Virus record (IMG/VR): IMGVR_UViG_3300043409_000243
Location: 1 to 36,581 of that record
Direction: 5' to 3' (one strand)
Source: a virus
Length of the DNA stretch: 36,581 nt
The notes below the pieces were generated by a model, which saw only the letters and a program-made list of their open reading frames with translations, was not told the origin of the DNA and searched no databases. This document shows, in pieces, positions 48 through 36,581 of this stretch. The translations under genes were made by a program, and so were the position numbers. Numbering within the stretch: the stretch's first letter is position 1; each line of letters opens with the position of its first letter.

Positions 48-127
48 GGACATTTGTGGACAATGTGGACAATGTGGGCAAGCACTTTTAAGTCGTCGCT
101 AAACTTGCATGTGTGAGGATGTGTGAG
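1..127. repeat. terminal direct repeat (assembly overlap), left copy
   Basis: Bases 1-127 are identical to 36455-36581 at a constant offset of 36454. An exact overlap of 127 bases is what a de Bruijn assembler run with k=127 leaves at the ends of a closed circle, so this most likely means the contig is circular or circularly permuted, not that the virion DNA carries a 127-bp repeat. A true terminal repeat cannot be excluded from sequence alone, but the P22-type portal and terminase genes also suggest headful packaging. Confidence 0.95.
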
Positions 128-226
128 AAAGCATGGGCGCCACAACCTACTGTATAGCTATATAGTATTACAAAAATATCTATCATCTAGCGTATCATTT
201 AAAGTAGTCCACATTGTCCACAAATG
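51..226. repeat. 20-bp perfect inverted repeat, arms 51-70 and 207-226
   Basis: The left arm catttgtggacaatgtggac (51-70) is exactly the reverse complement of 207-226. The arms flank about 136 bp that include the AT-rich segment. Each arm carries one or two DnaA-box-like nonamers, so the region is symmetrical around the likely melting element. This arrangement is typical of origins and of operator pairs bridged by a looping protein. Confidence 0.85.
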
Positions 227-455
227 CTAGTTTTCACTCTTAAACCCGGTCAATCGCACGTTGTCCACAATAGCCCCAAAAGCGCCCACAATCGCGCCCA
301 CGCTATCCACACCCAATGACCCCACACAATTGAAGGTCTAATTTATTGTGGGTTGACAAGCGCTAGGCATTGTCTTACATTAACTGTACCGGCGCAAACC
401 GCACCGGCATAAACTACAGTAAACGAAGGGTTTCCACATGTCTAGTTTGTCCACA
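55..455. promoter_or_regulatory. DnaA-box-like nonamer cluster, candidate replication origin
   Basis: The nonamer TGTGGACAA occurs in tandem at 55-63 and 64-72, with the variant TGTGGGCAA at 73-81. Its reverse complement TTGTCCACA occurs at 214-222, 261-269 and 447-455, the last inside the first gene; CTATCCACA is at 303-311. The E. coli DnaA box is TTATCCACA, one base away. An AT-rich stretch lies at about 143-205. Seen: the repeats and the AT-rich tract. Inferred: binding by host DnaA or a phage initiator. Nothing in 128-437 looks protein-coding. Confidence 0.5.
353..381 (+). promoter_or_regulatory. sigma70-type promoter for the left operon
   Basis: A perfect TTGACA at 353-358 is followed after 17 bp by TACATT at 376-381, a 4/6 match to TATAAT. 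Transcription would start near 388, about 50 nt before the first gene. The leader holds two ACCGGC direct repeats at about 388 and 402 and ends with the ribosome-binding site gaaggg. No activator site is obvious, and the promoter looks readable by unmodified host polymerase, as expected for early genes. Confidence 0.6.
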
Positions 456-1217
456 AAATCGGCCAAAATCTTAGGTTATATCGCGTACGAAGGCCCCAGC
501 ACAATCGATGGCGCGCCCATTGTCGTTATCGTTAATAAGGTCCACACGGCCAGCAAAAACGACAAAACCGGCGCGATTGTGCAAACGTTTATCATCCGCT
601 CAGATATCGCGCCCATGGCCGCGCTTCAATCGGGCGCCGATGTGTCCATATGTGGCGATTGTGCGCACCGGCCATATCTCATTAAAACCGGCCAAAGCGA
701 AGAACCGCCATGTTATGTCCAAGTAGGTAAGAGCGTGCAAAGCGTATTCCACGCGTATAAGCGCGGCCGGTACGTCAAAGCGGACCCGGCCACAATCGCG
801 CGCGTGCTGGCCGGTAAGATTGTGCGCATCGGTACATATGGCGATCCCTTCGCGGCGCCGGTCAAAATGTGGACCCAAATAACCCGGTATGCGGCCGGCC
901 GGCGCGGTTATTCGCACCAATGGGACCGGCCTGATTTTGATGTGCAAGCATGGGCGCCCCTAGTTATGGCCAGTGCGGACAATATCGATCAAGCTGCGAA
1001 GGCTAATTTGCTCGGCATGCGCGTTTTCAGGGTATCGGTGGGCGTTGACGTGCAACCGGGCGAAGCATCATGCCCCGCTAGCGCCGAAGGTGGCCGCCGG
1101 TCCACGTGCGCAAAATGTACCCTTTGCTCCGGTACGTCAATCGCTGCGCGCGATATTGTGATCGCGGACCATGCCGCCGGGCACGCGCGCCGGGTTATCT
1201 CAATCGTTAGTGTGTGA
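438..1217 (+). CDS. cysteine-cluster protein of unknown function
   Basis: This 259-residue protein opens the left operon and starts with ATG behind gaaggg. It resembles a widespread phage and plasmid family of unknown function that I recognise by its motif order: CGDC (C72, C75) with HRP after it, then C92, a central IGTYGDP segment (131-137), GYSHQW (157-162), MASADN (177-182), FRV (197-199), and a C-terminal cluster C212...C224-x2-C227-x2-C230. Seven cysteines in two groups suggest a bound zinc or iron-sulfur cluster. No enzymatic domain is recognised. Being the first gene next to the candidate origin fits an early regulatory or replication role, but this is only inference. Confidence 0.85.
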   Translation: MSSLSTKSAKILGYIAYEGPSTIDGAPIVVIVNKVHTASKNDKTGAIVQTFIIRSDIAPMAALQSGADVSICGDCAHRPYLIKTGQSEEPPCYVQVGKSVQSVFHAYKRGRYVKADPATIARVLAGKIVRIGTYGDPFAAPVKMWTQITRYAAGRRGYSHQWDRPDFDVQAWAPLVMASADNIDQAAKANLLGMRVFRVSVGVDVQPGEASCPASAEGGRRSTCAKCTLCSGTSIAARDIVIADHAAGHARRVISIVSV

Positions 1218-2922: not shown

Positions 2923-2949
2923 AGGGCCCCTCGCGGGGCCCTTTTTTTT
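2923..2949 (+). terminator. intrinsic terminator of the left operon
   Basis: An 8-bp perfect stem agggcccc/ggggccct (2923-2930 and 2935-2942) with the loop tcgc is followed by an unbroken run of T. It sits 19 bases after the last left-operon stop. On the other strand there is no T run after the stem, so it stops rightward transcription only and protects the convergent replication operon. Confidence 0.92.
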
Positions 2950-5218
2950 ACACCGGCTCGACCATGCGCCGAAGGTCAGAGCGGGAATACTCACTAAGCT
3001 CTGGCGCACAAAAAACGTGCTTTTTGGTGTCATGGTCGCGGGACTTGATGCGCCCCATGTCCACCCACCCGGCCTCTTTAAACGCGTGCAATAGCGCGGC
3101 CTGCACCACCTTAACCCCACCGGGGGCGATACCCTGGAGCCGGTCGCAAAGCCCATAAAAGGGGCCACCACAGACCCCACGGGAGAATTCACCGGCACGC
3201 CTGCGCATAAGGTCAACCAGAAACGATTCAGCGCCGCTCATGCCGTGCTCGACCATGATGGATTTCGCCTCAGTCATGGGGGGCGCTGCGTTCGGGTTCC
3301 ACGCGGACACGTCCCGGGTGTGCAAGTAATGGGCCACGGCCTCAAAACCGCCCCGGTGTTGGTACCAGTTCCACAGGCTAACCGCCTGAGCTTCTGGGAG
3401 CTTGGGGGCATCAGCCCACAGGACAAACCACCGGCGGTCTTCGCTGGGGATCGAGATGGCCACGCGCTCATTGGAAAACGCGATCACAAAAACCCGGTTC
3501 AGCGCCATGTAGGGGTGCAAGCCCTTGCGGTTGACCATGAGGAGCTCAGGGGGCGCGGCGATGATGGGCTTTAACGTGTTCTCAAGCGCCCGGCGGTCTT
3601 TGGCCTCGGCCTGCCTGAGCTCGGCGATCTCCATCACTTCGCACTCAAGCGCATAACCCCATTGGGAGGTCAGTTCTTCATTCTTGACCAATGAACAATT
3701 GTGCTTGGACGGGCCACCAATGGCCCAAAAGAAGGGGGCGAAAAGGGTATCTTTGCCTGACCCGTGGTTGCCACCCAAAAGGATAGCGTGATTGATCTTA
3801 TGGCCTGGAAACTGCACCTTGTGGGCCAACGCATTGAGCAGGTGTTCGCGCTCGAAACGCTCGGGCACCATGCGCTCAACGTGGGCCAGCCACTGGCTGA
3901 CGTCACCGGCCACCGGCTGCGGGCGCGCATCGCGCCAGCGGTTGCCATAAACCTGGCCCTCGCGGGCCACCAGCACAGACGCCCCGGCGGCGTAGGTGAT
4001 GCCCACCAGCGACTTGGCGCCTTTGCCCTGGCGGTTCTCGTCAAAGGATGTGGCGGCCTCGATGCGGCGCTTGGCGTTGTGTATGGACTTGCAGTCGATG
4101 TGGCGAAACAAGGCGTTGAAGGTGTTGCGCGACACCTCTCGGCGGTCGGTCATGTCGAAAAAGGCATCATCGGTCTGGACGTAGGCGAAACGCTCAAACC
4201 ATTCGTTTTTCTCGATGCGGCCCAACTCTTTGCGCTCCACCTCGGCAATGACGCGGGCGGCCTCATCGGGGTAGTCGGCGGTGGGGGCGAGCTTGGAAAG
4301 CGCCGACTCCATGGCTTGGGTGAGCAGTTCTTCGCGCAGGCCCGGGTTGTGGGCGGGGCCACCTTGGTCGGCGACCCACGTCAAAAAGGCGCGGGAATCG
4401 AAGTCAACGCAATGCGAGTGCAGGCAGCAATAGGCCCGGTTGGCGGGCATATAGCGGCCCTCTGGGTTGCCGTCTGTGTGCTCGGCACCATTGGGGCAAA
4501 TGACGCCCGCCCAGCCCTCGCCATTGGGCTTGGACAAGAGCAGACCCTGGCCACTGAGCCACGCCATCACGTCATCGGCGCCGTCATCCGACAGACGGAT
4601 GGGGCGCAGGGTGAGCGAATCGGGCTCGACCGGCGTCACGTCCAAGGCGGTGCATATGTCGGGCAGGCTGTACTCGCGCTCTGGGTGAAACTCCACCAGG
4701 CGCGCGGCGAAGTTGTCGCGGCCCGGTTTGAGGTTGATCGACCCAGGCAGTCGGAAGTTGCGCACTGGGTTGCAGGCGCCGGGGTCGGTGTAGCCCGCCT
4801 CGGCGATGGCTTTGATGGCCGCGCTGAACTCGGCCTTAGTCGGCTGATCTGAGAAGGCATAGCCCCACTGGAATGAGCCGGGGGACGTCTCCATGATCCA
4901 GGTCGGCTCAAGCGGCGGGGTCTTGGACTTGGTGCCGATGTCGTCCAGCATCATCACAAGGATGTACTCGCAATTGGCAGCGGACGCTGACACACGGCCC
5001 TCGGTGAATCGGTCGATGACAAAGCTGGCCGTGTTGCCGTACCAAGCCTGATCTGCTTTGATGCGCTTGGGGTCAGGCAAAAATGCCGGCCATGTGCATT
5101 TGACCGCCCCATCGGCGTGGAGTTGTATCTCGCCGTCTTTCAACTGTGGTTTTTGTCTGACAATCAGCGCTGTCTCGCCGCTTGGGGCCAATTTTGTGAT
5201 AAATTCCAGGAATTCCAA
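2948..5218 (-). CDS. primase-helicase (AEP-like primase plus DUF5906-type SF3 helicase)
   Basis: This 756-residue protein probably primes and unwinds the phage DNA. The N-terminal third looks like an archaeo-eukaryotic-type primase: MMLDDIG (89-95, acidic pair) and RNFRLPGSIN (153-162). A zinc-binding-like segment follows, with C241, H247, C264/C265, H267, H269 and C270. The C-terminal half is an SF3/DUF5906-like ATPase: Walker A GGNHGSGKDT (482-491), a Walker B-like ECEVMEIAEL (525-534), and the motif FSNERVAISIPSEDRRWF (581-598) with a likely arginine finger. It starts with TTG, preceded by AAGGAG at six bases. It is the last gene of the replication operon. Confidence 0.92.
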   Translation of the reverse strand: MEFLEFITKLAPSGETALIVRQKPQLKDGEIQLHADGAVKCTWPAFLPDPKRIKADQAWYGNTASFVIDRFTEGRVSASAANCEYILVMMLDDIGTKSKTPPLEPTWIMETSPGSFQWGYAFSDQPTKAEFSAAIKAIAEAGYTDPGACNPVRNFRLPGSINLKPGRDNFAARLVEFHPEREYSLPDICTALDVTPVEPDSLTLRPIRLSDDGADDVMAWLSGQGLLLSKPNGEGWAGVICPNGAEHTDGNPEGRYMPANRAYCCLHSHCVDFDSRAFLTWVADQGGPAHNPGLREELLTQAMESALSKLAPTADYPDEAARVIAEVERKELGRIEKNEWFERFAYVQTDDAFFDMTDRREVSRNTFNALFRHIDCKSIHNAKRRIEAATSFDENRQGKGAKSLVGITYAAGASVLVAREGQVYGNRWRDARPQPVAGDVSQWLAHVERMVPERFEREHLLNALAHKVQFPGHKINHAILLGGNHGSGKDTLFAPFFWAIGGPSKHNCSLVKNEELTSQWGYALECEVMEIAELRQAEAKDRRALENTLKPIIAAPPELLMVNRKGLHPYMALNRVFVIAFSNERVAISIPSEDRRWFVLWADAPKLPEAQAVSLWNWYQHRGGFEAVAHYLHTRDVSAWNPNAAPPMTEAKSIMVEHGMSGAESFLVDLMRRRAGEFSRGVCGGPFYGLCDRLQGIAPGGVKVVQAALLHAFKEAGWVDMGRIKSRDHDTKKHVFCAPELSEYSRSDLRRMVEPV

Positions 5219-5258: not shown

Positions 5259-7176
5259 ATTTGCCGTATCTCGACATGATCGCCACCTCTGCGTCAAGGG
5301 GCAAGCCCTTGGCCCACTCGGGCGGCGTACACATCACCTCTTTCAATCGCACGGCCATTTCCTCTGGCCGGTCGGTCTCAATGACCACCTCGTCATGCAC
5401 ATGGAGCACCACATCATCAAGCTGGCGCAGGGTATGGCGTAGCAAATCGTTGGCGGTGGCTTGGGTGATATTCTCACACGCTAGACCCTTCCAAAGCCTT
5501 GCACGCGGCCATTCTTTTGCGTCGGCTGCTGGTTTCCAAGCGGCCTTGGCGTAGGTCACACCATCGGCGTCCAGCTTGGCAAACGGGTAGCACAGCACCC
5601 GCGCGGAGGGCAGAGCATACCAAAGGTGTTGGCCATCGAACATATAGGTGACCCGCCCCGCGCTGAACTCATGGCCCTTGTTGCGCATGGCCCTGGTGTA
5701 GGCTTCCTCAAGCTGCTGCCAGTACGGCACAGACCAAGGGTTTGCCCTACGCCAGGCGTCCACCATGCGCTTGGATTCGAATTCAGTGAGTTGCACGCCA
5801 TAGGCGCGGCCCATGGCCGCGAAGGCACCGACGCCGCCGGCAAAGCCGCAGGCCAACTCTTGCACCTTGCCGATCTGGCGCTGATCCTTGGTGACATCGG
5901 CAACGGCCACGCCAAAGGTGGCGGCTGCGTTGACTTTGTACACGTCCTCGCCCTTGGCGAAGATGGCCAGCTTGTCGTCCCCACGGCCTGAGAGCCACGG
6001 GTTAGCGCGAGCCTCGATAGCGGCCCAATCGGCCACGACTAACTGTTTACCGGGCGCTGGGATCAGTGCGGGCCTGAGCATCCCCTTGAGGACATCAGTA
6101 ACGCGCTTTCCAAATCGAGGAACAATTGAATGGCCTCTGACCATTGCAGTTCTAACGTCTTCGGGCGATTCGGCGCACTTGCGAGTGAAATTGTGAACTT
6201 GGGCTCCATAGCTTGAAGCTCGGCCTGTTGCGCTGCCGCCTGCGAACACAAACGCTCCTCGTACCCGGTTGTCCTCGACATCTGCCAGGCTTGCAAGGCG
6301 GCTGAACTTCGCAACCGACGACGCCCAGAGGTCGTCGGCGCATTGAATGACTTCTTGAACATCGGGTGGGACATCCTCACAGTTTAAAAGATTGGCCCGC
6401 ACAGTCTTGTCGATGCTGTACTTCATCTCGCCGTCTTTGTAGGTTTCCATGAGCTTGAGCGCTTGCGGCCCCACACGCTCAATGACCCACTGGCGCATTT
6501 TGGGAGAGCGCACGCTGGTGATGGCTCCTTCGGTCACCTCGGCCACGATCTGCTCGATCTCGATCAGCTCGTCGCTGGCGTACTTGATGGCGGCTTTGCA
6601 CAGGGGCACATCAACCAAGACGCCCCGGTCGTTAATGCGCTCGTTGACGTGGTAGTCGAGCAGTTCGTCCTCTGACAGTGGCCTGAGCGCCTTGCTGATC
6701 GAGCGCATGGAGCGCACGTCTTGCTCGCAATAGGCCACCATCTCGGCCATGAGCGTGGGGTCGTTGTTGAATGTCCCATCAGCGCGGGGGATCGACAGCA
6801 AGCGGATCAGTTGCGAACCGCGATGGTCTTTCTTCATGGACGCGCCGGCGAAGCGGCCCACGTCTTCAAGCGAACCCGGCGCGCAGTTGGCGCGGGCCTG
6901 GGTGGCGGTGCAGTAGAACTGTTCTAATTGGTAATCTACGTGGAGAACATACCAAAAAATCAGGCGCTCAAAGGCGGCGTTGTGGGCGTAGATCAAGCCC
7001 TTGTGGTTGCGCACGCTTTCGGGAAATGGTTGGTCAGGCGTCCATGTCTGGACGTCCTCATCATCAAAAGCCCACGACATGCACAACACGTCGGTCGATG
7101 GGTCTTGAGCGTAGTTGTAAACGCCTGCGGCTTTTAGGTCGCAGGCGCTACGGGTTTCAAAGTCTAAAAAAAGCAT
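5257..7176 (-). CDS. family A DNA polymerase with 3'-5' exonuclease
   Basis: This 639-residue replicative polymerase has both domains. Exonuclease: DFETRSA (5-11, D5 and E7), AHNAAFE (64-70) and YCEQDV (149-154, D153). Polymerase: motif A VVADWAAIEAR (380-390, D383), motif B RQIGKVQELACGFAGG (433-448) and motif C HVHDEVV (592-598, D595). The motif A form DWAAIEAR replaces the DYSQIELR of Pol I, as is common in phages of this type. No 5' nuclease domain is present. The ATG has no clear Shine-Dalgarno, and a short frame continuing from the upstream gene ends 13 bases inside it, so its translation may be coupled. Confidence 0.96.
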   Translation of the reverse strand: MLFLDFETRSACDLKAAGVYNYAQDPSTDVLCMSWAFDDEDVQTWTPDQPFPESVRNHKGLIYAHNAAFERLIFWYVLHVDYQLEQFYCTATQARANCAPGSLEDVGRFAGASMKKDHRGSQLIRLLSIPRADGTFNNDPTLMAEMVAYCEQDVRSMRSISKALRPLSEDELLDYHVNERINDRGVLVDVPLCKAAIKYASDELIEIEQIVAEVTEGAITSVRSPKMRQWVIERVGPQALKLMETYKDGEMKYSIDKTVRANLLNCEDVPPDVQEVIQCADDLWASSVAKFSRLASLADVEDNRVRGAFVFAGGSATGRASSYGAQVHNFTRKCAESPEDVRTAMVRGHSIVPRFGKRVTDVLKGMLRPALIPAPGKQLVVADWAAIEARANPWLSGRGDDKLAIFAKGEDVYKVNAAATFGVAVADVTKDQRQIGKVQELACGFAGGVGAFAAMGRAYGVQLTEFESKRMVDAWRRANPWSVPYWQQLEEAYTRAMRNKGHEFSAGRVTYMFDGQHLWYALPSARVLCYPFAKLDADGVTYAKAAWKPAADAKEWPRARLWKGLACENITQATANDLLRHTLRQLDDVVLHVHDEVVIETDRPEEMAVRLKEVMCTPPEWAKGLPLDAEVAIMSRYGK

Positions 7177-7283
7177 ATAAAAGGTGGGGGTCTCGATTTG
7201 GGCTTCAACAAGGCGCAGAAGAAAGCCAGAAAATCCTGCGCGTCGCCATCCTCGAACGCTGTCTTGACAACCCCCAGGCTTAA
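7164..7283 (-). pseudogene. possible small ORF or remnant between SSB-like and polymerase genes
   Basis: After the stop of the upstream gene the same frame stays open for 39 codons and ends overlapping the polymerase start. It reads GVVKTAFEDGDAQDFLAFF... and then degenerates to a proline-rich tail. One base shift at the run TTTCTTC near 7210-7220 gives a more protein-like continuation, LRLVEAQIETPTFY, in the polymerase frame. No ATG, GTG or TTG with a ribosome-binding site is present. It could be a decayed small gene, a frameshifted gene, or chance. Confidence 0.3.
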
Positions 7284-7922
7284 TTATGCCGACCGACGAC
7301 GACGGCCAGCGGGGGCAGGCGCAGCTTCCTCAACCTTTGCAGGCTCAGGCTCACCGTCCATGCTGACCCACTCTTGCACCTCAAATACCGGGGTGTAGAT
7401 TTTGCCGTAGCTCTTGTGGGCGTAGTGATCCTTTTTGAGTTTCACAATTGCCACTGGCTTTGCTTGGTCTTTTTCGACCTGCTCTGCCAAAGCCACCGCC
7501 AAGGTCTGCACAGAACGCTTACCGCCCACTGACGTGGTGGTGTACCGCGCTTCCATGCCCTTGTCTTCACCGCTGATGCACTTGAGGCTCATGCCCACTT
7601 GTGTCTCCCAGCCTTTTTTGGCGCCGGGGGGCGCTTCATCCAACTCAGGCAACGGTTGGGACACCGACGCCATTTTCTCGGCCAACACTTCACCATCGCC
7701 CCAGGCGATGAAGCCGTGGACAAAGCTGAAAGGGTTGATGGCCCAGGTGGAGTCGTCTTCCACTTCGGTCTGATCGGCACCAAAGACCCAATGGCCAGTC
7801 TTGTCCATTTTGAGGATGACTGTACCGGCTGGGCCAACGTCTGCTTGGATCGCGCGCAAAGCGGTTGAGAGGGTGGAGACTGCGGGCAAGCCCGCTTGAG
7901 AGAACGCTACTAAATTGGACAT
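7284..7922 (-). CDS. probable ssDNA-binding protein
   Basis: The 212-residue product lies between the Fe-S nuclease and polymerase genes, the usual place for a phage single-strand-binding protein. It has an N-terminal segment with VGPAGTVILKMDKTGHWVFG, aromatic residues in INPFSFVHGFIAWGDG, a beta-rich core, and KDHYAHKSYGKIYTPVFEVQEWV before an acidic/proline linker. It ends basic (RRRRSA), unlike the acidic tail of E. coli SSB. The OB-fold is inferred from context and pattern, not from a diagnostic motif. It has the ribosome-binding site AAGGAA. Confidence 0.65.
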   Translation of the reverse strand: MSNLVAFSQAGLPAVSTLSTALRAIQADVGPAGTVILKMDKTGHWVFGADQTEVEDDSTWAINPFSFVHGFIAWGDGEVLAEKMASVSQPLPELDEAPPGAKKGWETQVGMSLKCISGEDKGMEARYTTTSVGGKRSVQTLAVALAEQVEKDQAKPVAIVKLKKDHYAHKSYGKIYTPVFEVQEWVSMDGEPEPAKVEEAAPAPAGRRRRSA

Positions 7923-9872: not shown

Positions 9873-11175
9873 CTTCTTGTACGAGAGCGACCGCGCCATG
9901 GTGCTGGCGCCAGTGGGTGCTGGCAAGACCGCGATCACGCTCACGGCCATGGACGCCATGATCAAAGACGGCCACGTCAAGCGCTGGCTGGTGGTTGCGC
10001 CCAAGCGCGTCTGTACCGACGTGTGGCCCGTCGAAGCGGCCAAGTGGAGCAAGCACTTGAAGCTGGCCATCGCAGTCGGCACGCCCAAGCAGCGCAACGA
10101 TGCGTTTAACAGCGACGCCAACGTGATTGTGATTAACTACGACAACCTGCAATGGTTGGCTGATGTATGCGGCGTCACCGGCGACGGCCTGTTGGTGGAC
10201 GGTTTGGTGTTTGACGAGCTGACCAAGCTCAAGAACCCATCAGGCGCGCGCTTCAAGGCGTTCGACAAGATCGTCAAAGGCGTGCCCATTCGCTGGGGCT
10301 TGACCGGGTCGTTCACCAGCAACGGCTTGGAGGACGTCTTCGGCCAGTGCAAGATCATTGACCTGAGCCTGCTGGGCCGCTCCAAGGGCGCGTTCATGCA
10401 GCAGTACTTTGTGCTAATCAACAAGGAGTTTGGCGAGTGGGCGCCACGGGTTGGCTCGCTGGCCAAGGTCATGGACAAGATCAAACCAGCGACGTATGTG
10501 TTGGAGCCAGGCGAGTACAAAGACAAGCTGCCCCCGCTGCACGTTGTCGAAGTGCGCTGCGACTTGAGCGACCGCAAGCCCTACGAGAAGATGAAGGCCG
10601 ACTTTGTGGCACTAGGTGTTGCCGCGATCAATGCCGGCGTGGTGACCGGCAAGCTGCAACAAATGGCCAGCGGGTTCGTGTACGACACGCGAAAGCAAGC
10701 GTCTGACGTACCCGGCAAGTTCATTGTCACACAGACGCCGGTGTGGTTTAGCCCGCACAAATTTGATCGCTTGGAGGAGTTGCTCGATGAAAACCAGCAC
10801 GCAAATACCATTATTGTTTACCAGTACCAAGAAGAGCTCGCCGAGCTCAAGCGCCGTTTCAACCCCACGACTCTTGACGACGACCGAGCCATTGAGCGAT
10901 GGAATGCTGGACAAGTCAGGTTACTGGCCGTCCATCCAAAGTCAGCCGGGCACGGGCTCAACCTTCAGCACGGCGGGTGTCACATGGTGTTTCTGTCCCT
11001 GCCGTGGAGTCTGGAGTTGTACGAACAGACCATTGGTCGTTTGCACCGCTCAGGCCAAGCACACGCTGTGTGGTGCTACGTGATGCTGACCAACAAAACG
11101 GTCGATGAGAAAATTTTTGCCGCCTTGCATGACAAGCGAGCGGTGTCGGAGATTGCCATGGAGAGTTTGAAATGA
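9835..11175 (+). CDS. SNF2-type DNA helicase
   Basis: This 446-residue superfamily 2 ATPase acts on DNA forks or branched intermediates. Visible motifs are LRPYQEQAADFL (Q-motif-like N-terminus), Walker A APVGAGKT (25-32), VFDELT (125-130) in place of DEAH, and, near the end, SAGHGLNLQHGG and QTIGRLHRSGQ (motifs V and VI). ATG 9835 follows TAAGGAG by seven bases, while an upstream ATG at 9805 lacks one. The family has no nuclease domain of its own, which fits its pairing with the overlapping VRR-NUC gene. Confidence 0.95.
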   Translation: MVSLRPYQEQAADFLYESDRAMVLAPVGAGKTAITLTAMDAMIKDGHVKRWLVVAPKRVCTDVWPVEAAKWSKHLKLAIAVGTPKQRNDAFNSDANVIVINYDNLQWLADVCGVTGDGLLVDGLVFDELTKLKNPSGARFKAFDKIVKGVPIRWGLTGSFTSNGLEDVFGQCKIIDLSLLGRSKGAFMQQYFVLINKEFGEWAPRVGSLAKVMDKIKPATYVLEPGEYKDKLPPLHVVEVRCDLSDRKPYEKMKADFVALGVAAINAGVVTGKLQQMASGFVYDTRKQASDVPGKFIVTQTPVWFSPHKFDRLEELLDENQHANTIIVYQYQEELAELKRRFNPTTLDDDRAIERWNAGQVRLLAVHPKSAGHGLNLQHGGCHMVFLSLPWSLELYEQTIGRLHRSGQAHAVWCYVMLTNKTVDEKIFAALHDKRAVSEIAMESLK

Positions 11176-34249: not shown

Positions 34250-35769
34250 GCGCCCATCCATCCTGTAGATACTGCGCTACCGTAGCTTCTGGCGGTGCGC
34301 TTGGGTTCGGCATACTCACGATGTGCCACTGGAAAGGCAAACGTGACGCAGATAGCGTCAGCAGCGTCGGGTGAGGCAAGACCGCGAGCTTTCATTTCTT
34401 TTTTGCTTTCCAAGAAGATTGTTCCCCGTGAATCAGGCTTCATCATAGGCGAAATCAAGTCCGTCTTCAAGAACCTGTCGCTAGGGATACTAGCAGATTT
34501 CAGCCATTCTCGCATATCTCCCCACATCTGCGCGCGCATATTACCGTACATGATCGGGTTTTTGGCTTTATTTCCAAAGTTTATGCCCTTGACCTTGTAC
34601 CGCTGCTCTTTCAATCGATCGACAATACCCGCCCCCAGCCCACCTTCGTCGATTACGACCAGCGCCGGCTTGAATTCTTCAATCGCTTCGATTACATACC
34701 CCACCACCGTCATGGTGTCGTCGCCCCTGTGGCGCATGATCTTGACAATATCCCGCCCTTGCCTGACCGCGATCACCGTGGCATCCGCTCCAAACCGCGC
34801 CGGGTCTACGCCAATCACGATTGGCGCCGACTGATCCTTGTATTTAGGCCGGGCCATGGCGTCGTCCACTATGTCGGCGCCGATGAACTGGTCATCGCCC
34901 GCGCTTGGGAACATGCCGTAGACCTCGACGTGCGCCTGTGATGAATCAGGCCCATATTCGTCAATGATTCGGTTGTAAACCGCCTTGTCGGTGCCCTCGA
35001 CCGTCCTGGCGTCCACGATTCGGGTGCGCCAAAACGCTCTTTTAGAGTTAAACGCTTCGTAAAAGTACCCGGTGTTGCGTCGCGGGTTGGAAAACGCTAA
35101 CCAAAACCGGTTTGGCGTGTTTTCTGTAAAAAAACCGCCGGTCACCGCCCAGATTGAGTCGTCAATACCAGACGCTTCATCAAAAACCACCAGCACACCG
35201 TCAAAGTTGTGTACGCCAGCGTAAGCGTCGGGGTTCTCGGCTGACCACAGCCGCCCTTCCACGCCCCAGTAGCGGGTGCCCTTTTTCAAATCACGCTCCA
35301 CAAGCTCAGTCAACCACTTGGCCGGCATCACTCGGGTGGCCGACACCTCAAACCAGTGTGAGTTGATGGCCATCGCCAGCCACTTGGTGATCTCGGCCCA
35401 GGTGATTGACCTAAGCTGGGACTCACTGTTGGCCGATATGATGGTCGTCGAGCCAATCCTGGTGGCCAGCATCCAGATCGTGATCCAACTAACCAGCGCC
35501 GACTTGCCAATACCCCGGCCAGATGAGATGGCCTCTTGCAGCACATCAAAGTCAGCCTTGCCCTGGTTCAGTTTGATGTGCTCGGCGATGTCCAGCAGCA
35601 CCTCGCGCTGCCATTTGCGCGGGCCGGTGAAGTGTTCCAATGGCGTGCCCTTGACGCCCCAGGGGAAAGCAAACATTACAAACGCCAGCGGGTTGTCCTT
35701 GATCGCCGGGCTCCACAGCCGGGCCATCAGCTCTTGTTCGTCTTCAGCGCTGTACTTGGTGCTCTGCAT
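34246..35769 (-). CDS. terL: terminase large subunit
   Basis: This 507-residue packaging motor has an ATPase domain with Walker A ISSGRGIGKSA (81-91) and Walker B VLVVFDEASG (192-201; D197, E198), and an RNase H-like nuclease domain with VIGVDPARFGADATVI (318-333, D322), VVIDEGGLGA (371-380, D374) and SPDAADAICV (466-475, D471). Its ATG lies inside the end of the small-subunit gene, with no separate ribosome-binding site, so it is probably coupled. It works with the P22-type portal to package DNA from concatemers. Confidence 0.96.
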   Translation of the reverse strand: MQSTKYSAEDEQELMARLWSPAIKDNPLAFVMFAFPWGVKGTPLEHFTGPRKWQREVLLDIAEHIKLNQGKADFDVLQEAISSGRGIGKSALVSWITIWMLATRIGSTTIISANSESQLRSITWAEITKWLAMAINSHWFEVSATRVMPAKWLTELVERDLKKGTRYWGVEGRLWSAENPDAYAGVHNFDGVLVVFDEASGIDDSIWAVTGGFFTENTPNRFWLAFSNPRRNTGYFYEAFNSKRAFWRTRIVDARTVEGTDKAVYNRIIDEYGPDSSQAHVEVYGMFPSAGDDQFIGADIVDDAMARPKYKDQSAPIVIGVDPARFGADATVIAVRQGRDIVKIMRHRGDDTMTVVGYVIEAIEEFKPALVVIDEGGLGAGIVDRLKEQRYKVKGINFGNKAKNPIMYGNMRAQMWGDMREWLKSASIPSDRFLKTDLISPMMKPDSRGTIFLESKKEMKARGLASPDAADAICVTFAFPVAHREYAEPKRTARSYGSAVSTGWMGA

Positions 35770-36184
35770 GTGTTAGCTTGTTTAGTGATGGCTCATGGGC
35801 AATGACGTCGATGACGCGGGACTCAGCGTCGCGCAGCGCCTGGGTGACTGAGATGCGCTGATCGACATCAATAGTGATAGATTGCTTGGCCACCCAACCG
35901 TGGACGTTCTGGAGGATCGCCAACGCCGCTTTGGAGTCGCCCTCTCGCGCTGCCTTGTGCAAACACTGAGACATTTCCATCTCAGCGTCTGCTTTGCCCT
36001 TAAGCGCTGCCATCTCCGCAATGGGGTCAAGCTGCACCAGTTGCCGGTACTCGGAGGGCAGCATGCCAGAAGCCAACGCCAACGAGTCGCCTTTTAGCCC
36101 CAGCTTGGCAGCTTCGTAGATGCGGGTTAAGCGCGCCTCAGTCGCTTCGACCTTGCGCGGTGCAAAAGGTAGGCTTTCAAACAT
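35744..36184 (-). CDS. terS: terminase small subunit
   Basis: This 146-residue protein lies directly before the large subunit and overlaps it by 26 bases. The N-terminal part (EATEARLTRIYEAAKLGLKG, LASGMLPSEYRQLVQLDP) is helix-turn-helix-like, followed by an oligomerisation helix (DAEMEMSQCLHKAAREGDSK, AALAILQNVHGWVAKQ), the usual small-terminase order. It should recognise the packaging site. No Shine-Dalgarno precedes ATG 36184, and an extended -10 lies six bases upstream, so its mRNA may be leaderless. Confidence 0.88.
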   Translation of the reverse strand: MFESLPFAPRKVEATEARLTRIYEAAKLGLKGDSLALASGMLPSEYRQLVQLDPIAEMAALKGKADAEMEMSQCLHKAAREGDSKAALAILQNVHGWVAKQSITIDVDQRISVTQALRDAESRVIDVIAHEPSLNKLTHAEHQVQR

Positions 36185-36190
36185 GTGCCG

Positions 36191-36199
36191 AATATACCA
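36191..36199 (-). promoter_or_regulatory. extended -10 promoter of the late operon
   Basis: On the - strand TGG-TATATT reads from 36199 to 36191, a TGn extended -10 with a 5/6 match to TATAAT. Six bases separate it from the ATG at 36184, so transcription should begin at or next to the start codon. There is no clear -35; upstream is an A/T-rich UP-like stretch (36200-36218). Confidence 0.55.
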
Positions 36200-36217
36200 A
36201 AAATAAATTTAAAAATT

Positions 36218-36233
36218 TGTGGGCAATGTGGGC
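36218..36233 (+). repeat. two further TGTGGGC nonamer repeats
   Basis: TGTGGGCAA at 36218-36226 is followed by TGTGGGCTA at 36227-36235 with 9-base period. They match the third tandem unit at 73-81, so the nonamer family extends on both sides of the 12-mer array. They lie beside the late promoter, between it and the hairpin region. Confidence 0.7.
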
Positions 36234-36340
36234 TATAAAAAATTTTGTTTGTGGCCCCTCCGCTGCCGTGACCTTTGGCGCTCGGCCCTACCCGGGGGCC
36301 CTCAAGCAAACGGCAATCGGCCACGCGACCTGCAGCCACC

Positions 36341-36359
36341 AACCTTACAAAACCTTACA
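36341..36359 (+). repeat. AACCTTACA direct repeat, 10-bp period
   Basis: Two copies of AACCTTACA at 36341-36349 and 36351-36359. The 10-bp period places them on the same helix face. The surrounding 36236-36377 holds no ORF with a plausible start. Confidence 0.75.
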
Positions 36360-36377
36360 TTGTAGTACTTTAGTGGG

Positions 36378-36406
36378 GGGTCGTGTGGACTATGTCCACA
36401 TGACCC
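36378..36406. repeat. 13-bp stem, 3-base loop hairpin
   Basis: gggtcgtgtggac (36378-36390) pairs with gtccacatgaccc (36394-36406), with one G-T position and the loop tat. The stem contains TGTGGAC and GTCCACA, the core of the nonamer family. No T run follows it, so it is not a simple terminator; an origin, nick or protein-binding hairpin is more likely. Confidence 0.85.
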
Positions 36407-36430
36407 GGTGGCTCGCTGGCCGGGGCCATC

Positions 36431-36501
36431 GCGCACCAGGTAGCGCACCAGGTAGCGCACCAGGTAGCGCACCAGGTAGCGCACCAGGTAGCGCACCAGG
36501 T
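36431..36501. repeat. 12-bp tandem array, six copies
   Basis: Five perfect copies of gcgcaccaggta and a sixth gcgcaccaggt run without spacers from 36431 to 36501 and join the tandem nonamers at 36509-36535. The array is an iteron-like element. The short open frame across it, which would read SAPGSAPG repeats, is a by-product of a 12-base unit and not a gene. Confidence 0.93.
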
Positions 36502-36581
36502 GGACATTTGTGGACAATGTGGACAATGTGGGCAAGCACTTTTAAGTCGTCGCTAAACTTGCATGTGTGAGGATGTGTGAG
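36455..36581. repeat. terminal direct repeat (assembly overlap), right copy
   Basis: Identical to bases 1-127. Dropping one copy closes the circle, making 36185-36581 plus 128-437 a single non-coding region of about 700 bp between the small terminase gene and the first left-operon gene. Confidence 0.95.

Follow-up and report, generated by a model that had tools for sequence, protein, structure and literature searches.

The window, the whole 36,581-nucleotide stretch of DNA analysed here, is a circular virus contig in which positions 36455-36581 are identical to positions 1-127. Because the final 127 bases duplicate the first 127, the circle measures 36454 bp. This exact 127-bp terminal repeat most likely reflects k-mer overlap in the assembly of a circular map, not true terminal redundancy, and end repeats of 80-127 bp are present in about half of 20 relatives examined. 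On the circle, 36185-36454 and 1-437 join into a 707-bp gap, so that the non-coding region of approximately 700 bp noted in the original prediction is real. No close named phage was found for the window, the structural genes of OR003940, which has its own annotated primase/polymerase, being ~76% identical in DNA to those of the window phage. The genes and elements that concern us are as follows.

35744-36184, minus strand: small terminase subunit, assigned by position; left neighbour of the 707-bp gap
36185-36454: left part of the putative origin region; lies upstream of the small terminase gene, and runs on into 1-437 over the circular join
36218-36233, plus strand: two forward TGTGGGC boxes (36218 and 36227), directly upstream of the small terminase gene
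36378-36406: hairpin, in which forward box 36384-36390 and reverse box 36394-36400 face each other with 3 nt between them
36431-36501, plus strand: 12-bp array of GCGCACCAGGTA, 5.9 copies; lineage-specific (5 of 439 loci)
1-437: right part of the putative origin region, holding the core (box groups around an AT-rich stretch) and the gene 1 promoter
51-226: 20-bp perfect inverted repeat (51-70/207-226), formed by facing boxes and enclosing the AT-rich stretch
55-79, plus strand: left arm of the core, made up of three forward boxes that keep a 9-bp register (TGTGGAC at 55 and 64, TGTGGGC at 73)
146-206: AT-rich stretch, presumed unwinding element; 74% AT over 61 bp and 78% over the richest 50 bp
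207-222, minus strand: right arm of the core, made up of two reverse boxes that keep a 9-bp register (207-213 and 216-222)
263-290, minus strand: two more reverse boxes (263-269, TGTGGAC; 284-290, TGTGGGC)
353-381, plus strand: sigma-70-like promoter of gene 1, TTGACA-17-TACATT
438-1217, plus strand: gene 1, phrog_2554, function not assigned; right neighbour of the 707-bp gap
447-455, minus strand: one more reverse box, TTGTCCACA, just within gene 1
2948-5218, minus strand: primase-helicase of 756 aa, candidate initiator (RepB_primase-like AEP plus DUF5906/SF3)
2951-3244, minus strand: C-terminal winged helix (residues 659-756), putative origin-binding domain, from the fold model and covariation
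3017-3058, minus strand: wing (residues 721-734) with the predicted specificity residues K725 (3044-3046), R727 (3038-3040) and D730 (3029-3031)

In the window phage the box reads TGTGG[A/G]CAA and recurs with a 9-bp period. The nonamer TGTGGACAA, present on both strands, occurs five times in the whole circle, and every copy lies at 55-455. With up to one mismatch the number of matches rises to 24, where 10.2 would be expected, and not one of 100 shuffles gave as many as 24 (this count includes the repeated end twice). The 20-bp inverted repeat (100% complementary) and the 13-bp hairpin (36378-36390/36394-36406, 92% complementary) described in the original prediction are both composed of these nonamer boxes, and what had been missed is that the boxes lie in convergent tandem groups, at 55, 64 and 73 in the forward direction and at 207 and 216 in reverse. 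The AT-rich stretch that they enclose contains a palindrome at 148-167. The iteron-like 12-bp repeats are likewise present, and their copies are perfect. Divergent promoters had been proposed at both edges; the right one is found at 353-381, while a consensus scan found none at the left. No Rfam families were found in the window. Gene 1 has a weak DUF7227 match and carries the cysteine motif CPASAEGG..CAKCTLCSG.

The gap in related phages

Approximately 440 loci were gathered by scanning viral contigs, the queries being the large terminase, gene 1 and four diverse primases, and the compared sequences are metagenomic contigs except for two. The position of the gap is conserved in ~65 loci that have gene 1 together with the terminase gene, its length being nearly always 580-1250 bp. 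Most loci contain a box with a 9-bp period whose sequence differs between phages and is nearly uniform within each phage, with TGTGGAC, TGTGGGC, TGTGTGC, TGTAGTC, TGTTGGC, TGTAGGC, TGTCGGC, TTTGGGT, CATGGGT and TATGGAC among the versions seen. This concerted change within each phage extends across 262 related loci. By one version of the caller, which confused strands, the gap has a median 42-fold higher density of the called box than the remainder of the locus. The layout of the core recurs as well: tandem boxes face each other at 60-180 bp in 89 of 185 loci (median gap 112 bp) and stand back to back in 11, and the richest 40-mer between facing boxes has a median of 80% AT in the relatives.

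The 12-bp direct-repeat array is not conserved among the 439 loci and is probably accessory, not part of the core. The original prediction held that relatives keeping the genes and not the repeats would speak against an origin. What the relatives keep is the box array, in place and with its sequence rewritten along with the protein, whereas the 12-bp array is dispensable. Extra arrays unrelated to the box and particular to one lineage, like the 12-bp array of the window, occur in the gaps of L137, L110 and L151 (CAGCAGCC), L103 and L114 (AGGCAGGC), L044 and L036 (TTAGTGAGCACTAA-like) and L128 (ACCTAGCAAA). The gap of L435 holds two box types together, ten copies of the GGAC type and nine of the GGGT type, and is possibly an intermediate of a specificity switch.

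A candidate initiator and its covariation with the box

The original prediction saw no obvious known initiator gene. The primase-helicase at 2948-5218 on the minus strand is a candidate for this role. Its Pfam matches are to DUF5906 (E 5e-11) and to RepB_primase (E 1.6e-4, weak and just under Pfam's cut-off), and it falls in DNA primase families of PHROGs. AlphaFold2 models residues 659-756 as a winged helix with a pLDDT of about 90, in which a wing at residues 725-732, between strands 719-724 and 733-737, holds residues 725, 727 and 730. This C-terminal domain had no match to a Pfam family. Fold comparison returned winged-helix chains with middling Z-scores of 4-6, including the C-terminus of NrS-1 PrimPol (Z 4.7), and the solved origin-binding domain of P4 alpha was not among the matches listed. 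The putative recognition helix (706-715) has several invariant residues (A708, L709, H711, A712 and E715), and specificity therefore appears to sit in the wing.

To follow the box and the protein together, changes in both were placed by parsimony on a tree of primase-helicase residues 1-640, which gave 34 inferred box changes at base 2 and 66 in the core. The p-values are nominal and serve for ranking, as branches were treated as equal and the box pattern was learned from these same loci. For base 2 of the box, R727 is the best of 756 columns (p 1e-13), and 15 of the 23 changes at R727 fall on branches where the box changes. For the box core the best of the 756 columns is K725 (6e-12), and at core position 3 K725 (2e-11) and D730 (2e-10) lead. 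An earlier box call with a different pattern likewise ranked K725 and D730 above all other columns, with eight of the nine columns under 1e-3 located in residues 641-756. These three residues are thus predicted, from sequence covariation, to be the specificity residues.

The pairing of residue and base is close to regular. R727 occurs with G at base 2 in 173 of 182 loci, and seven of the nine apparent exceptions, labelled AAG, are miscalls from AAGTTAGT palindromes. G727 occurs with T (16/16), A727 with A in 18 loci and T in four, and S727 with A (4/5). In the core, H725/N730 accompanies GTG (15/15) and T725/P730 accompanies AGT (8/8). The code is not one-to-one, as GGG cores too are found with K725/D730, and the core can differ between loci whose wings are the same. 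Boxes were called from a pattern, and at some loci they are missed or assigned wrongly. A looser box pattern, which mixed boxes with their reverse-strand twins, was dropped and superseded by the tree test and a label-free test, and weighted mutual information per column proved too noisy because few clusters were left after weighting.

The label-free test, in which 14-residue protein windows were correlated with the 7-mer similarity of the gaps, points to the same domain. Seven windows over primase residues 659-756 rank first to seventh of 54 (0.17-0.23; the next is 0.08). On the same loci, the best window of the other proteins reaches at most 0.16, versus 0.30-0.52 for primase 659-754, and the column test agrees, with the small and large terminase, polymerase, ssb-like protein, exonuclease and gene 1 all far weaker than the primase. 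When loci with N-terminal identity of at least 80% were excluded, the box of the nearest neighbour was predicted correctly in 51% of cases by the wing and in 21% by residues 1-640, with chance at 18%.

These comparisons bear on the proposal that the boxes are a packaging (pac) site for the neighbouring small terminase, which the adjacency of the gap to the small terminase gene and the P22-like portal, coat and head-closure genes of the phage would favour. The small terminase windows have no consistent link to the boxes (one at 0.15, the rest at most 0.02; best column p 2e-3). In addition, L125, L128, L133, L138 and L159 combine the same gene 1, primase module and gap layout with a large terminase that is unrelated (27-31%), and no small terminase is recognisable in them, which indicates that the replication module has passed from one packaging module to another. 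These and other loci with an unrelated large terminase keep boxes upstream of gene 1, and several of them have TGTAGTC boxes, as does L158 with its window-type terminase. Since the boxes persist beside unrelated terminases and the small terminase does not covary with them, we consider a packaging site highly improbable.

Natural swaps show the box and the C-terminus of the primase-helicase changing together. Considering full-length proteins only, as some pairs elsewhere with an N-terminal value of '1.00' involve truncated proteins, L228 and L239 are 99.8% identical over residues 1-640, 98% over 641-700 and 65% over 701-754, with the break just after ...LKEAGW, and their boxes are TTTGGGT/CATGGGT versus TGTGGAC. 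The pairs L217/L149 and L261/L222 follow the same pattern, so that across the three pairs residues 1-640 are 98-99.8% identical and residues 701-754 are 65-67% identical, with different boxes. In L154 and L158 (95.5%), the box changes from TGTGTGC to TGTAGTC along with a change from HSREYN to TSREFP.

A probable origin and its proposed reading by the primase-helicase

Our comparative analysis strengthens the suggestion that this region is an origin, and we conclude that the 707-bp gap is very probably the replication origin of the phage, served by its own primase-helicase. In the mechanism that we propose, the primase-helicase would bind each 9-bp box through its C-terminal winged helix, with the wing reading the box such that residue 727 specifies base 2 and residues 725 and 730 specify the core. 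The facing tandem boxes would seat two opposed helicase hexamers, self-loaded on duplex DNA, and the AT-rich stretch between them would be melted. Both forks would then be primed for the phage family-A polymerase, giving a bidirectional start. Facing boxes across an AT-rich stretch are the arrangement expected for two opposed hexamers, and binding, melting, the bidirectional start and the contacts between residues and bases are all predictions of this model. The features that the window phage has in common with the P4 alpha/SaPI Rep class are an AEP primase fused to an SF3 helicase, a predicted C-terminal winged helix, and intergenic repeats with an AT-rich stretch.

Binding by either DnaA or a phage initiator had been anticipated, and the evidence separates the two. 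If host DnaA were to bind the TTGTCCACA nonamers and open an oriC-like origin, the AT-rich stretch adjoining the nonamers would be well placed, and TTGTCCACA is one base off the classical DnaA box TTATCCACA and is a favoured DnaA box in some high-GC bacteria. Relatives carry TGTGTGC, TGTAGTC, TGTTGGC, TTTGGGT, CATGGGT and other boxes, which are not DnaA boxes, in the same place and layout, and these variants track residues of the phage primase-helicase. Moreover, TTWTNCACA has no match in the window and is found in only 42 of 332 relatives' regions. Because variants that are not DnaA boxes keep the layout and track phage residues, and boxes of the DnaA type are missing from the window and uncommon among relatives, the host DnaA explanation is very unlikely, and the changes in the box argue for the phage initiator.

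A third possibility is that the boxes are operators, bound by the primase-helicase or a small regulator, for the terminase and gene 1 promoters, with replication starting elsewhere. Initiators often autoregulate, the boxes lie close to both gene starts, and there is a promoter-like site at 353-381. Against such a role stand the AT-rich stretch enclosed by facing tandem boxes in many relatives and the absence of gene 1 from many loci that retain the terminase, gap and primase. The probable binder is also a primase-helicase, and known relatives of this protein bind origins (PMC7581432; PMC4234260). An operator-only role is thus less likely than an origin, and we regard it as improbable; the boxes may additionally have a regulatory role.

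GC skew, suggested in the original prediction as a check, was uninformative and did not single out the region. The raw minimum in the window is at 709 and the detrended minimum is near 9 kb, and in 20 relatives the minima are mostly at ~1.1 or 9.4 kb. As the minima follow gene direction, GC skew neither supports nor refutes an origin here. The minimum near 9.1 kb in the window, or 9.4 kb in relatives, lies where the leftward replication genes give way to nuclease/helicase genes that run rightward.

Comparison with known systems and implications

An origin served by the primase-helicase would resemble several known systems. The helicases of SaPI and SCCmec (SaPI Rep and Cch2) bind short repeats in an intergenic origin through their C-terminal domains, and SaPI5 Rep is also a primase-helicase fusion (PMC7581432). 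The SaPI5 protein matches the window protein in structure (E 3e-7) at a low sequence identity of 12%. Unlike those elements, the present phages are a large freshwater podovirus-like group with facing boxes of 9-bp period, wing residues predicted to track bases, and a box that has been rewritten many times. P4 alpha, as far as PMC4234260 describes it, unites in a single polypeptide a primase, a helicase and a winged-helix domain through which the repeats of its origin are bound. Its primase is of the TOPRIM type, whereas that of the window phage is of the AEP type, and no sequence relationship between the two proteins was found.

The closest architectures are found among PrimPol-helicases. ORF904 of pRN1 joins a PrimPol, an SF3 helicase and a C-terminal winged helix in one protein, although its proposed origin is a stem-loop without iterons to which no specific ORF904 binding was detected (PMC4234260), in contrast to the clear boxes of the window phage. 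NrS-1 PrimPol is the best PDB match of the window protein (profile E 2e-13, structure E 3e-16) over the helicase and C-terminal region (PMC7102993, PMC8718748). The 8-nt NrS-1 recognition site, TTTGGTTA, differs in that it is used for making primers on single strands and has two copies in the genome (PMC7102993, PMC8718748), and the basis of its recognition is unclear (PMC7102993). A recognition site or its basis is therefore lacking for some PrimPol-helicase initiators (PMC4234260, PMC7102993), and this phage group offers sites, a putative reading domain and likely reading residues together. No paper describing this system was found in the literature searched, outside of which many subscription papers fell.

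The nearest precedent for a changing origin is the PLE satellites of Vibrio cholerae, in which the repeats of the origin covary with the DNA-binding domain of RepA, the initiator, and the two swap as a module (PMC8263062). The PLE initiator is of the RepA_N type, with two origin types and no residue code, whereas here a primase-helicase is paired with many box types. PLE origin swaps have been ascribed to a phage nuclease directed against one of the two origin types (PMC8263062), and by analogy the frequent rewriting seen here suggests that satellites, competitors or defence systems exert pressure on the origin. We put at about even the chances of a two-part reading. In the first part, origin specificity would be a fast-switching trait, with origin and wing repeatedly exchanged or rewritten together, plausibly because an origin that stays fixed is open to exploitation by satellites, rival phages or origin-directed defences. 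In the second, the recognition code would be nearly readable from one wing, with residue 727 for base 2 and residues 725 and 730 for the core. Because the boxes and three wing residues change together across ~260 relatives, this code is exposed to testing, for which the natural swap pairs are ready-made, and the boxes may be of practical use for annotating origins in many uncultured freshwater phages.

With regard to hosts, the close primase relatives L481 and L485 are on contigs binned with Rhodoferax, which suggests freshwater betaproteobacteria, bearing in mind that bins can be contaminated. In the distant relative MW202483 (L509), whose primase is 52% identical, a separate box-like cluster, ATGTAAAC in eight copies at 10317-10571, lies upstream of the terminase and fits the layout, and its wing, GMCFAPELSTKRH, breaks a simple rule that pairs R727 with TGT. 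The same genome encodes, close to the primase (7083-7379, minus strand), a small protein that carries the annotation DnaA helix-turn-helix, possibly a DnaA mimic or antagonist.
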